A model generated the notes under the pieces. The model worked only from the letters and a program-made list of their open reading frames with translations. It was not told the DNA's origin and made no database searches. The position numbers were made by a program, and so were the translations under genes. From assembly GCA_937867415.1 (NCBI GenBank), contig CALMKO010000311.1:1-36316 (forward strand): a stretch of 36,316 nucleotides of DNA. Reading direction: 5' to 3'. This stretch comes from an uncultured Verrucomicrobiota bacterium (GTDB lineage: Bacteria > Verrucomicrobiota > Verrucomicrobiia > Verrucomicrobiales > Akkermansiaceae). Below, piece by piece: positions 28,724 to 32,279 of this stretch. Each line of letters opens with the position of its first letter. Position 1 is the stretch's first letter.

Positions 28724-30799
28724 ATGAAGTGCGCGGCGGGTTTATCGTGGATGTGGGCGTTATGGCTCGTGATGGCGGGGGCTGCCCGGGCGGATGACGC
28801 GCCGTGGGACGAGCGCTTGGCGGGAACGTTTTCGGGGAGGCTCAGAGAGATTGGAAATGAGTTGAAAGCGCTGGAGCCGCAGCTTGCAGCGCTGCCGAGC
28901 CTGCCGATCGATGACCAGGGAGGCACCGGCGGCTACGCGGGAATTTATGCGACTGCCGTGCCGGCGGCGGGCACCCGGGCTGCGGTGGAAGTGCGTTGGG
29001 GGGGCGGTGCCTTGATTGACAAGGTCGCGTTGGTTCCAGCGCGGAGGTATGATGCGAGGGGGCTCGACGCGCAATACGGGATGCCGGAGGCCTTCACGGT
29101 GGAGTTGATCAATGAAGCGGGTGAGGTGGTGCGGCGGGTGGCGCGGGAGGTGGACACCCGTGCCGACCGGGTGCGGCACGGGCACCCGTTCGTCTATCAG
29201 GTGTCGCCGGCGGTGGAGGCGAGCGGGATCCGCGTTTCAGGTGACAAGCTGATCCCGGACTCCGAGGGTGAGGGGACTTTCGTACATGCCTGGGCTGAGT
29301 TGTTTGCTTTCCAAGCCGAGAGGAATGTGGCGCTGGGGCAGAAGGTGGAGAGCATCGGCGGAAGTGCGCCGCCCGCACCCTGGCACTGGAGCGCCGCCTT
29401 CCTGGTCGATGGCCAGGTGCCGCTGGGCCTGCCCGAGGTTCCTGCGGAGGAACATGCCAACATTGGCTGGCTCTCCGAGGGGCGGGAAAGCCCGAATGAG
29501 GCGGTGTCCCTGAGTGTGAATCTGGGCGAGGCGATGGCGATCGATTCCGTGCGCTTGATCCCCGCCAAGCGTCCGACGTCGGATTTGCCGAGCGGATTTG
29601 GTTTTCCGCGGAAGCTCAGGATTTACGTTTCCGAGAGCGGCGAGCCCGGGGATGCGGGGAATTGGAAAATGGTCGCGGGGCTGGATCTCCGCAATCCAGG
29701 ACATAATCCGGTGTTGGTGCGGTTTGAGCAGCTCAAGACGCGCTTTGTCAAAATCGAGGCGGTGGAGCTGTGGAAGGCATTTGAAAGTTATCCGGCATTT
29801 TTTGCGCTGAGCGAGGTGGAAGTGCTCTCGGATGCGCGGAATCAAGTGTTAGGGAAAGCGGTGTATTCCTCGGACGGGATGCTCAATGTCTTCGCGCCAG
29901 GCGGGCGTTTCTGGACCTCGGCGGCGCTCAGTGATGGATTCGGTCCGGATGGGCGGCTGGTTTCCACTCGCACTTGGATGAACCAGTTGGATATGCGCCT
30001 CACGCTGGAGCGGCGGCGGCATGATTTGCTGGCGGAGTCTGCAAATCTAGTGGGCAATTGGCGGCGTGCGGGGCAGATCGGGTTGGCCTTGTTAGGGTTG
30101 CTGGGGGCATTCTTGGTGGTCGTTTTGCCGATCCGATATCGGCTCCATGCGCGGGAGGAACTGCTCAAGGTGAGGGAACGCATTGCGGGAGATTTGCATG
30201 ACGAGGTGGGCAGCAATCTGGGGAGTATTCAAATGTTTGCGGATCTGGCAGAGGGGCGCTCGGGTGGCTCGGACGAACTGAAGCGGATCCAACGGATCGC
30301 CGCGGAGACGGTGAGCGCGGTGCGTGACATCGTGTGGCTGCTCCGGCCGGAGGGTGATCACCGGATTGGCACGGTCGAGCATCTGCGTGAGACCAGCTCC
30401 ATCATGTTGGAGTCCCTCGAGTGGAAGTTCACGGCGGATGAAGAGGCGTGGCAGGTTGAACTTCCGGAAGAGTCGAACCGCGACTTGTTTTTGTTTTTCC
30501 GCGAAGCGCTTCACAACATCATGCGTCACGCCAAGGCGAAGAAGGTATCGGTGCGTGCGGAGCGGGTCGGGGGTGGGCTCAAGCTGCTGATTTCGGATGA
30601 TGGGGTAGGCATCGTGCCAGAGCGCTTGGAGCGCCCGTCCACCTTGCGGGCCCTGCGCCAGCGCTCGGCGGCGCTGGGGGCGGAGTTGCAGGTCAAGACT
30701 AGCCCGGGCGAAGGGACGCGGCTGGAGTTGACGGTGCCGCTGGAACGCAAGCGGGCGAAGAAGAGGTCGGAACCTCCACTTCCGTCCGATCCTGTCTGA
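28724..30799 (+). CDS. Sensor histidine kinase (HisKA_3/NarL type) with two extracytoplasmic discoidin-like domains
   Basis: The 691-residue protein has a signal peptide (residues 1-24, ending GAARA) and a large periplasmic part. Two beta-rich modules at about 60-190 and 195-370 resemble F5/8 type C (discoidin) carbohydrate-binding domains; one repeating pattern is the pair VRWGGGALIDKVALVPARR and LGEAMAIDSVRLIPAKR. A membrane span lies at about 447-468. The cytoplasmic kinase has the dimerisation/phosphorylation motif RERIAGDLHDEVGSNLGSIQ with His492, then an ATPase domain with N-box FREALHNIMRHAKAKK near 592-607 and the G1 box DDGVGI near 625. A LuxR-type response regulator follows 44 bases later. 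The ligand is unknown; a glycan is an inference from the fold. Confidence 0.87.
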   Translation: MKCAAGLSWMWALWLVMAGAARADDAPWDERLAGTFSGRLREIGNELKALEPQLAALPSLPIDDQGGTGGYAGIYATAVPAAGTRAAVEVRWGGGALIDKVALVPARRYDARGLDAQYGMPEAFTVELINEAGEVVRRVAREVDTRADRVRHGHPFVYQVSPAVEASGIRVSGDKLIPDSEGEGTFVHAWAELFAFQAERNVALGQKVESIGGSAPPAPWHWSAAFLVDGQVPLGLPEVPAEEHANIGWLSEGRESPNEAVSLSVNLGEAMAIDSVRLIPAKRPTSDLPSGFGFPRKLRIYVSESGEPGDAGNWKMVAGLDLRNPGHNPVLVRFEQLKTRFVKIEAVELWKAFESYPAFFALSEVEVLSDARNQVLGKAVYSSDGMLNVFAPGGRFWTSAALSDGFGPDGRLVSTRTWMNQLDMRLTLERRRHDLLAESANLVGNWRRAGQIGLALLGLLGAFLVVVLPIRYRLHAREELLKVRERIAGDLHDEVGSNLGSIQMFADLAEGRSGGSDELKRIQRIAAETVSAVRDIVWLLRPEGDHRIGTVEHLRETSSIMLESLEWKFTADEEAWQVELPEESNRDLFLFFREALHNIMRHAKAKKVSVRAERVGGGLKLLISDDGVGIVPERLERPSTLRALRQRSAALGAELQVKTSPGEGTRLELTVPLERKRAKKRSEPPLPSDPV

Positions 30800-30843: not shown

Positions 30844-31515
30844 ATGTCCGACCTGCTTCCCACGAAAGAAAAACCGATCCGGCTCGTTTTGATCGAAGAT
30901 CATGCGGATTTCCGGGAATCCGTGTCGATGGTGCTTGAAGAGCGGGGCGGCTACCAATGCGTGGGTGGTTTCTCGACGATGGAGGATGCGTTGGAGGCCT
31001 TCCGTGGAGGTTTGCTCGCGGATTTGGTTTTGTCAGACCTTGGGCTGCCGGGGATGAGTGGGATCGTTGGGATTCGCAAGGTGCGCGAGCTTTTGCCCGA
31101 GGCGCGGGTGCTGGTGCTCACTGCATTCACGGATAAGGCGAAGGTTTTCGCGGCGCTGGAAGCAGGGGCTCATGGCTACCTCGTCAAGGCTGGCAGCGCG
31201 ACCCGGCTGATGGAGACTCTTGAAGAAGTCCTTGCGGGTGGGACGCCGCTGGATCCGAAAATCGCGGGGATGATCCTACAGACATTCCGCCAACTCAGTC
31301 CGATTCCGGGGGCGGAGGCGCTTTCCCCGAGGGAGTGCGAGGTCTTGCAACTCTCTGCAAAGGGCCTGAATCGCCAGGAAATCGCCGACGAGCTGAAAAT
31401 CAGCCAGCACTCCGCTACCGAGTACATCAAGCGCAGCTTTGATAAACTCCACGTGCGCAGCTTGCCCGCCGCCGTGAGTGAGGCGATCCGCCGCGGATTC
31501 CTTGATTTGTCCTGA
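30844..31515 (+). CDS. Response regulator, NarL/FixJ (LuxR-type HTH) family
   Basis: The 223-residue protein pairs a receiver domain (12-130) with a LuxR-type DNA-binding domain (160-215). Receiver residues are clear: acidic pair E18/D19, phosphoacceptor Asp65 in LVLSDLGLPG, Thr93 in LTAFTD and Lys115 in YLVKAG. The HTH reads LSPRECEVLQLSAKGLNRQEIADELKIS followed by HSATEYIKRSFDKLHVRS, close to the NarL pattern. It lies behind the kinase of the matching type and is thus its cognate regulator. A strong terminator lies 135 bases downstream, with a structured segment in between (see the ncRNA entry). Targets are unknown. Confidence 0.94.
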   Translation: MSDLLPTKEKPIRLVLIEDHADFRESVSMVLEERGGYQCVGGFSTMEDALEAFRGGLLADLVLSDLGLPGMSGIVGIRKVRELLPEARVLVLTAFTDKAKVFAALEAGAHGYLVKAGSATRLMETLEEVLAGGTPLDPKIAGMILQTFRQLSPIPGAEALSPRECEVLQLSAKGLNRQEIADELKISQHSATEYIKRSFDKLHVRSLPAAVSEAIRRGFLDLS

Positions 31516-31553
31516 TTTTACCCCGCAAACCCACGTGATCGCGTGTGTCCCAT

Positions 31554-31683
31554 AATTTGGTGACATGACAAATTTCTGAAAAGCTGACACCTTTGCGGCG
31601 TCGAGGGGAGAGGTCCCCGGTTTCATGAAGAGGTTCATGACAGAAATTTGGGGGTCACGTGAGTGCGTGACCCCCTTCTTTTT
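31554..31683 (+). ncRNA. Candidate structured small RNA or 3'-UTR-derived RNA, with two GAGG-loop hairpins
   Basis: This intergenic stretch has no protein-coding frame of note but has ordered structure. Hairpin A is GGGGA-GAGG-TCCCC (31605-31618). Hairpin B is TCATGAA-GAGG-TTCATGA (31623-31640). The flanking arms CAAATTTCTG (31569-31578) and CAGAAATTTG (31641-31650) form a 10-bp inverted repeat enclosing both. The left arm can alternatively pair with AATTTG (31554-31559). A 10-bp terminator with U-tract follows directly (31650-31683). CATAAT at 31551-31556 could be a -10 box, but no clear -35 was found. It may be an independent sRNA or be cut from the regulator mRNA. I do not recognise a known RNA family. 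Confidence 0.5.
31650..31683 (+). terminator. Strong Rho-independent terminator
   Basis: A perfect 10-bp stem (GGGGGTCACG at 31650-31659, complement at 31666-31675) with a 6-base loop is followed by TTCTTTTT. It ends the two-component operon and the candidate RNA on the plus strand. The minus strand has only a weak U-tract. Confidence 0.95.
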
Positions 31684-31715
31684 GCCCGCATGGCTCGTAT
31701 CCGCCTGTGATCGGA

Positions 31716-32279
31716 TCAGTCGGGCGAGTTGGCGGTTCCGACGCTGAACTCACATCCAAGATCACGCAGGCTTGCCTTAGCGTCATCCGCGCCCTCGATG
31801 GTCAGGATCACCGGCAGTGCCTGCGTTTGGGGCCGCTGGTATTCCTCCAGAGTTTTTTTGAGTGCGATGATGGTCAGTTTGAGAATCTGGCGGCTTGTTA
31901 AATCCACCTCGGGTGGGATCGCAAGTTCTGCGACGTTCAGGCTCACCAGAAGTATGCCATTTTCGATTTTCCCGACGATTCCGATGTTGGAAATAACTAA
32001 CAAGTTCGCCTCCTGCACCTTGTAGTTCGGATGGTTCGTTGGAATCAGATGGGGGCTGCGGATGGCATCGACCAAGGCCTCGGGAAAGGCCCCGGTGAGG
32101 GCCATGGGGCGCGGCATCACGGACGCTTGCAAGGCCTCGCCGATCTCGGAAATCGCGCCGTCACCATCCGTTCCATGCAAGCTCAAGGGCTCGAAAATCG
32201 GCACGACCATGATCGTGGAGGCAAGTCCCATCCCCAAGGTTGAAACATGAAACAAGCACAGGATGAAAAACTTTCTCAT
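31716..32279 (-). CDS. Exported protein of unknown function
   Basis: This 187-residue protein has a signal peptide (MRKFFILCLFHVSTLGMGLAS) and a mixed alpha/beta body with no family that I recognise. A central hydrophobic strand region (EANLLVISNIGIVGKIENGILLVSLNVAELAIPPE) and a following helix (SRQILKLTIIALKKTLEEYQR) are visible; one cysteine lies in the signal and one near the C-terminus. The base composition looks a little more AT-rich than that of its neighbours. It is convergent with the two-component operon across the terminator and divergent from kdsD across a 321-base gap. It may be periplasmic; no function is claimed. Confidence 0.7.
   Translation of the reverse strand: MRKFFILCLFHVSTLGMGLASTIMVVPIFEPLSLHGTDGDGAISEIGEALQASVMPRPMALTGAFPEALVDAIRSPHLIPTNHPNYKVQEANLLVISNIGIVGKIENGILLVSLNVAELAIPPEVDLTSRQILKLTIIALKKTLEEYQRPQTQALPVILTIEGADDAKASLRDLGCEFSVGTANSPD

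Follow-up and report, generated by a model that had tools for sequence, protein, structure and literature searches.

A predicted multicopy small RNA family associated with a NarL/FixJ-type response regulator in the Akkermansiaceae (Verrucomicrobiota)

Background

The described systems closest to the locus reported here are GacS/GacA, CiaRH-csRNA and LisRK-LhrC. GacA is a response regulator of the NarL/FixJ type, and rsm genes are not known to be linked to gacA; the LhrC small RNAs (sRNAs) have C/U-rich UCCC loops, which pair with Shine-Dalgarno regions. According to those parts of the published accounts on which we draw, the response regulator of GacS/GacA drives several sRNAs (RsmX, RsmY and RsmZ) via a palindromic upstream element, and the Rsm RNAs sequester RsmA-type proteins via several GGA motifs (PMC2375449). 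Streptococci with the CiaRH system have two to six csRNAs per genome, short, terminator-ended sRNAs of 51 to 202 nt. Each is preceded by a promoter that contains a CiaR binding site, and they were predicted by the same logic as that used here and confirmed by Northern blot (PMC3091779, in part). The CiaR site is a direct repeat, TTTAAG-N5-TTTAAG (PMC8186281, in part), and in Listeria a multicopy sRNA family is placed under one two-component system, LisRK (PMC4132741, PMC5880928, both in part).

The locus studied here lies in a stretch of 36,316 nucleotides from an uncultured bacterium of the family Akkermansiaceae (contig CALMKO010000311.1), hereafter called the window. Like the csRNAs, as the source partly describes them, its predicted relatives are short terminator-ended sRNAs whose promoters carry the site, here a proposed one, of one response regulator (PMC3091779). 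In contrast to the csRNAs, the site is an inverted 6-8-6 dyad, TGTCCC-N8-GGGACA, the regulator is NarL-type, and a copy usually lies right behind the regulator gene. A response regulator and a palindromic element before sRNA genes are shared with Gac-Rsm, so far as the account used covers it (PMC2375449), but a CsrA match is absent from 16 genomes searched and the loops of the window copy are without GGA; by inspection, some copies have GGA in one loop or at most two, rather than multiple GGA or ANGGA motifs. The multicopy organization under one two-component system (here a proposed one) is shared with LisRK-LhrC as partly described, whereas the loops are purine-rich or stable tetraloops (GAGG, GGGA, GNRA and UCCG types). 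Because binding site, protein partner and loops differ, the element would belong to none of the CiaR-csRNA, Gac-Rsm and LisR-LhrC families. The 99 copies that we found in 53 genomes are predicted homologous short RNA genes with their own promoter and intrinsic terminator, one of the features of multicopy sRNA families controlled by a two-component system. On comparison of sequences, the element would best be classed as a new family within an established kind, the multicopy sRNAs governed by a single response regulator.

The original prediction recognised no known RNA family, and this still holds: Rfam 15 gave nothing at gathering score in the window or at eight loci with relatives. The best weak match extending past the terminator, suhB/mmgR (RF00519), reached 15.5 bits against a gathering score of 41 and is attributed to chance, and the only higher weak match (ftsZ-DE, 16.3 bits) covered the terminator alone. 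Among the titles listed in our literature searches, none named an experimentally studied sRNA of the Verrucomicrobiota, which is a weak negative, as in part of the searches the listed papers did not name these bacteria. Any claim that the family is unpublished would have Rfam and these listed titles as its basis.

Results and discussion

Organization of the locus

The features of the locus are as follows (positions in the window).

28724..30799, plus strand: sensor histidine kinase (Pfam HisKA_3 and HATPase_c; an F5/8 type C-like region is below the Pfam cut-off)
30844..31515, plus strand: NarL/FixJ-type response regulator, the proposed sRNA activator (Pfam Response_reg and GerE; recognition helix at about residues 189-199)
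31546..31565, plus strand: dyad TGTCCC-N8-GTGACA, at which the response regulator is proposed to bind
31565..31570, plus strand: -35-like ATGACA, abutting the dyad and common to 69 of 94 copies
31588..31593, plus strand: -10-like CACCTT (CAnnnT at 17-nt spacing in 77 of 94 copies)
31600..31683, plus strand: predicted sRNA of about 84 nt, its start placed by the distance to the -10
31605..31618, plus strand: hairpin 1, GGGGA[GAGG]UCCCC, with pairs changing on both sides (covariation)
31623..31640, plus strand: hairpin 2, UCAUGAA[GAGG]UUCAUGA, present in only part of the family
31638..31641, plus strand: UGAC of the conserved pre-terminator motif UUCAUGAC (UGAC in 76 of 92 distinct transcripts)
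31650..31683, plus strand: intrinsic terminator, an 11-bp stem with covarying pairs and a T tract
31569-31578 and 31641-31650: 10-bp inverted repeat, seen in the window copy only

The element begins at 31546, earlier than the position 31554 originally given, and a transcript starting at about 31600 would be about 84 nt long, shorter than the band of about 120 nt that had been expected. A reading on the minus strand was considered and set aside: the scan lists this hairpin for either strand, but as a T tract the tail on the minus strand, AAATTTCTGT, is inferior to that on the plus strand, TTCTTTTTGC. A minus-strand frame of 120 codons (window 31276-31638), antisense to the end of the regulator gene and to the sRNA, is probably no gene.

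RNA structure

The twin hairpins of the original prediction, with stems of 5 and 7 bp and the loop GAGG in both, are in the sequence between the regulator stop codon and a strong terminator. Window positions 31545-31720, terminator included, fold better than 200 of 200 shuffles (z -3.76). Two hairpins of at least 5 bp sharing one tetraloop arose in none of 20,000 dinucleotide shuffles of 31554-31649, by a criterion picked after the sequence had been seen, and two hairpins with any loop arose in 138 of 20,000.

The alignment of all 99 copies (98 distinct) was fitted to the structure; in it, 94.4% of cells are paired and changes affect both sides in 14 of 16 pairs. Its covariation score of 0.389 was reached by none of 500 shuffles, which ignore relatedness and gave 0.195. 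A MAFFT alignment of 43 transcripts gave a score of 0.345 against 0.184 (again reached by 0 of 500) with 11 of the 16 pairs changed on both sides, and slid controls were far lower (0.070-0.165). Changes on both sides affect four of the five pairs of hairpin 1 (91.9% of cells paired) and 10 of the 11 terminator pairs (95.5%) in the 99-copy alignment, and two of the five hairpin 1 pairs in the smaller, independent MAFFT alignment. Since covariation exceeds both shuffles and slid controls, it is very likely that hairpin 1 and the terminator really form in an RNA. Hairpin 2 is clade-dependent: its arms are UCAUGAA/UUCAUGA in the window copy and UUCAUAA/UUGUGAA in others, and it is absent or different in many.

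The stems of relatives had been expected to covary around a fixed GAGG loop. Hairpin 1 and the terminator do covary, but the loop is not fixed: GAGG, GGGA, GAGA, GCGA, GUGA, UGGA, GCAA, UCCG, GAAA and others are seen across the copies; one loop table, which gives hairpin 2 for hairpin 1 in some copies, was used only for the kinds of loop. By lineage, the window's genus (g1) has GAGG, GGGA, GAGA, GCGA and GUGA, and a second genus (g22) has UCCG, GCAA, GCGA and GAAA. GAGG, being one of several tetraloops, was thus rejected as a family-wide loop signal. Hairpin 1 is duplicated within the RNA in L018, L192, L193 and L205. In L192/L193 and L205 the stem of the duplicated hairpin has diverged while the loop (GAGG or GAUG) is kept; these few lineages provide the best support for the proposal of loop selection, so that selection on a GAGG loop may be said to be weakly supported by the comparison, although several tetraloops serve the family at large.

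The 10-bp inverted repeat reported around the hairpins exists but is confined to the window copy: in the 93 further copies whose promoter was placed, the corresponding regions match by complementarity over 3-8 nt at the longest. The left arm of the repeat falls between the start of the -35 and the -10, ahead of the predicted start, and would therefore not be in the RNA. A large structure of about 120 nt closed by this repeat, which is unique to the window copy and inside the promoter, was accordingly discarded.

Distribution of the family

When the genome of the window and those of 58 relatives were searched at the DNA level, 14 of the 59 gave matches at E <=0.1, several of them with at least two places; one of the 14, in G041 (E 0.075), looks like chance. 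The matched relatives show the upstream dyad directly before ATGACA, and a scan of genome contigs for the dyad yielded 82 DNA stretches. The seed consisted of 54 elements (52 distinct) with a terminator, from dyad-scan stretches, the window and two DNA-search loci; 43 of the 52 were used for the alignment and the covariance model, the other nine (near-duplicates or long inserts) being left out. Applied to the 82 stretches, the model found 54 copies in 45, including two missed by the terminator rule (L032 at 1191 and L055). All 45 fall among the 49 stretches titled Akkermansia(ceae), Verrucomicrobi(a, ia, aceae), Haloferula, Luteolibacter or Prosthecobacter, while no copy was seen in the 33 stretches with other titles.

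The model search over 260 genomes of the family gave 99 strong copies in 53 (E <1e-7 for one genome), after eleven weak matches (E >1e-10, on the strand opposite to strong copies) had been removed; 11 further genomes with weak matches only (E 6.4e-5 to 0.008) were counted as without the sRNA. Strong copies are confined to the genera g1 and g22, and four other genera have weak matches only (E at least 6.4e-5). One copy is present in 21 genomes, the window's among them, two in 21, three in eight and four in three, so that 32 of the 53 have more than one; tandem arrays comprise three copies in L108 and two each in L109 and L116. Two named strains carry the element, Haloferula luteola YC6886 and Luteolibacter (now Neoluteolibacter) marinus NBU1238. 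It is also carried by metagenome-assembled genomes titled 'Akkermansia muciniphila' (L033, L043, L046, L069, L089 and L092), titles that may be misnomers.

Promoter and dyad

The upstream part of the element consists of the dyad TGTCCC-N8-G(G/T)GACA, an abutting -35 (ATGACA), 17 nt, and a -10 (CAnnnT). Conservation sets in sharply at the dyad, with at most 0.6 bit per position in the six positions upstream. A first pattern placed the dyad in 72 of the 99 copies and a wider pattern in 94; the five copies outside the promoter counts are L118 (one-base variant GGGACG), L201, L175 and L184 at 7 (cut at contig ends) and L206 (without dyad). The half-sites of the 94 are TGTCCC with GGGACA (75), GTGACA (14) or GCGACA (3), and (T/C)GCCCC with GGGGCA (2), and their -35 hexamers are ATGACA (69), AAGACA (18), ATGACG (5) and others (2). 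CAnnnT stands exactly 17 nt past the -35 in 77 of the 94, compared with 1.5% per position within the spacer.

The seed set was found by dyad search, and its dyad conservation is by construction; the search key did not include the -10, hairpins and spacing, although elements had to have a terminator and all of these features are part of the model with which the wider search was made. On this comparison, the element appears to be an independent sRNA gene under a promoter of its own.

Association with the response regulator

Of the 260 genomes, 51 have a regulator match of at least 80% identity, in every case together with the sRNA; two genomes (G166 and G187) have the sRNA only and 207 have neither at these thresholds, nine further genomes with regulator matches of 38-60% identity, probable paralogs by this measure, being counted as without the regulator. 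The association (Fisher p ~3e-52, phylogeny not corrected for) is confounded by phylogeny and partly by linkage. Among 37 congeners from the DNA search, 16 have both, and a strong sRNA or a regulator of at least 80% identity is listed for none of the other 21, which include two genomes with a 55% regulator paralog (G002 and G024) and one with a weak sRNA match and no dyad (G032). Regulator orthologs are 80-95% identical, and the neighbouring kinase about 52-75%; of 62 loci rows, which include the window, duplicates, paralogous loci and early-ending contigs, 40 have a kinase homolog next to the regulator.

Forty of the 51 genomes have a copy on the strand of the regulator gene and 7-268 nt downstream of it, and in G026 the copy lies 66 nt upstream. 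The remaining 10 have no copy in the 330 nt downstream, their copies being on other contigs (eight) or far away (two). The G187 copy is without a dyad, as expected if the regulator of that genome was lost. The other exception, G166 (a 570-contig draft), has the sRNA with an intact dyad and no regulator match, which counts against the link between regulator and dyad. The near-constant pairing of sRNA and regulator suggests that the regulator acts by switching on the RNA. Of the two origins first proposed, a regulator-linked sRNA is strongly supported by comparison (covarying stems, own promoter and terminator, nested co-occurrence with the regulator), whereas derivation from a 3'-UTR is opposed by the copies far from the regulator, which have the same promoter.

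Recognition helix and half-sites

Comparison of the recognition helix covered 55 rows (47 genomes) at first and then all 51 regulators. T192, Y194, I195, R197 and F199 are invariant in the 51; S190 and E193 are constant in 50, the sole exception for both being G146 (S190T, E193D), which is also the only genome with dyads TGCCCC or CGCCCC paired with GGGGCA. H189Y occurs in G146 and in five other genomes, the latter with TGTCCC where dyads were read, and position 196 is variable (42 K, 6 Q, 3 R); neither can thus be the specific change. In the alignment with NarL, E193 corresponds to V189 and K196 to K192, both of which we take, in NarL numbering, to be DNA-contacting residues. Because the half-site change coincides with a helix change only in G146, the dyad is probably the binding site of the response regulator; this co-change is suggestive of regulator-dyad specificity, being a single event and not proof.

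Paralogous regulators (about 52-64% identity, seven loci) have helices that are HSVSGYLRR-like or more distant. By eye, six of the seven loci have an imperfect dyad in the same register before a TGACA box (L212 has none), of the TGACGC or TGTGAC type with halves matching at 4-5 of 6 positions, and in L208, L211, L213 and L214 the paralog dyad is followed by the start codon of a seemingly secreted protein, which is perhaps the ancestral arrangement. Paired kinase and regulator paralogs with their own imperfect dyad and TGACA box are found at L208, L209, L210, L211, L213 and L214.

Other dyad sites

The perfect dyad TGTCCC-N8-GGGACA was counted in 25 genomes, and occurs 0 times in the eight without the sRNA and 40 times in the 17 with it. 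Thirty-one of the 40 are at sRNA promoters (30 model hits and one, G023:C83, cut by a contig end), and nine are elsewhere. Five of these nine are in longer palindromes (G138, G009, G147, G148 and G139, the last, at G139:C2:106896, judged only from its identical spacer), which are probably hairpins or terminators and not operators; two, in G006:C156, are near other genes, and two are unassigned. In G019:C180 a dyad promoter precedes an apparent protein gene. Given the nine dyads away from sRNA promoters and the promoter in G019, the sRNA need not be the only output of the regulator. By locus, the longer palindromes around TGTCCC and GGGACA are at L227, L241, L245 and L247 and at G139:C2:106896, and a gene of the PfkB family adjoins two of them (L227 and L241).

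The window's genome has four sites within two mismatches of the dyad plus -35: the sRNA promoter described here, two sites TGTCGC-N8-GCGACA upstream of autotransporter-like genes with PATR repeats, and one within a long reading frame (C216). The TGTCGC sites, alike in operator layout but with a different half-site, are probably the operator of another regulator from the same family. The sequence TGTCGC-N8-GCGACATGACA occurs twice, at G000:C56:38868-38892 and 41678-41702 (L105, L106 and L254), before two tandem PATR-repeat genes.

Proposed mechanism and alternative explanations

The reading that we favour, with a probability of roughly 75%, is a dedicated sRNA gene that is directly activated through the dyad by the response regulator encoded upstream, and whose RNA pairs in trans. 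RNA structure, promoter and the regulator-dyad link are supported by comparison among the copies. The kinase would phosphorylate the regulator, a dimer of which would bind TGTCCC-N8-GGGACA beside the -35 and recruit RNA polymerase to a promoter with a weak -10; activation is presumed over repression. The transcript, of about 75-85 nt from the predicted start, and longer where hairpin 1 is duplicated, would end at its own terminator and consist of the 5' hairpin, a short conserved segment round UUCAUGAC or the loop of hairpin 2, and the terminator. The RNA would most likely pair in trans with mRNAs without Hfq, ProQ or CsrA, and the one to four gene copies per genome may raise dosage or diversify targets.

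Profile searches, which could miss divergent homologs, gave no match in 16 genomes (12 with and four without the sRNA) to CsrA (PF02599), Hfq (PF17209) or ProQ (PF04352), whereas controls were positive in 3, 5 and 1 of 14, respectively. In view of these results, chaperone-independent base pairing is the likeliest mode of action, and a protein sponge would come second. AUGAC is present in 71 and UGAC in 76 of the 92 distinct transcripts; the mean unpaired value of the UGAC segment is 0.55, compared with 0.37 overall, which makes it no more than moderately open, and part of it is paired within hairpin 2 in the window copy, so that its role as a pairing seed is uncertain. UUUCAUGAC is complementary to GUC-AUG-AAA start regions.

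In 40 of 51 genomes the stretch immediately follows the regulator gene in the same orientation. This would also fit the tail of the mRNA of the kinase-regulator operon, with a terminator region that may be processed into a 3'-UTR RNA, and a single terminator could serve both operon and stretch. Yet copies on other contigs or far off keep the dyad and -35 as well as the -10 and its spacing, the onset of conservation at the dyad is sharp, and the G026 copy precedes the regulator gene, all of which make this explanation improbable. There is an outside chance that the RNA is a sponge, in the manner of Rsm/Csr, for some other protein recognising purine-rich tetraloop hairpins: the same loop is repeated on different stems in the window copy, L192/L193 and L205, and the loops GGGA and UGGA resemble ANGGA. 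However, there are usually just one or two hairpins ahead of the terminator, the g22 loops (GCAA, GAAA and UCCG among them) suggest simple hairpin stability, and CsrA had no match in any of the 16 genomes, with positive controls. A sponge for CsrA itself was rejected on the latter result.

It is quite improbable that the dyad is a 5' hairpin within the RNA and not an operator. Its arms are complementary and change together in G146 (TGCCCC/GGGGCA), but that change coincides with the change in the recognition helix of the regulator; moreover, a -35/-10 pair stands at fixed spacing downstream, GTGACA or GCGACA breaks a pair in 17 of 94 copies, and the paralogous regulators are accompanied by other dyads in the same layout, at several loci before protein genes. 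Several copies per genome, scattered positions and the tandem copies of L108, L109 and L116 recall a small mobile or repeat sequence (REP/MITE-like) hitchhiking beside the regulator, which is nevertheless very hard to reconcile with only 1-4 strong copies per genome, a promoter and terminator in nearly all of them, compensatory changes, and a presence tied to the regulator. Equally far-fetched is a short peptide encoded from the conserved AUGAC: 16 of the 71 transcripts with AUGAC have an 8-codon frame, but 42 have no stop before the end of the examined stretch, other frames are 3 to 16 codons long, and 21 of the 92 distinct transcripts are without AUGAC.

Direct activation of a trans-pairing sRNA thus remains our preferred reading. 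More speculatively, and with a low probability, this branch without Hfq, ProQ and CsrA may have a riboregulatory system of its own, made up of a NarL-type regulator, a dosage-amplified sRNA, a hairpin-tetraloop unit and an undescribed RNA-binding protein; the sRNA would then be the most constant output of the regulator, and the tetraloop unit would be the part duplicated and loop-conserved in some lineages.

Significance

The element brings together a concrete RNA, a regulator and a proposed operator in one set. The paired change of half-site and recognition helix offers a handle for testing specificity in NarL-type regulators, and the family as a whole ties a two-component system to probable riboregulation in bacteria in which the usual RNA chaperones were not found.
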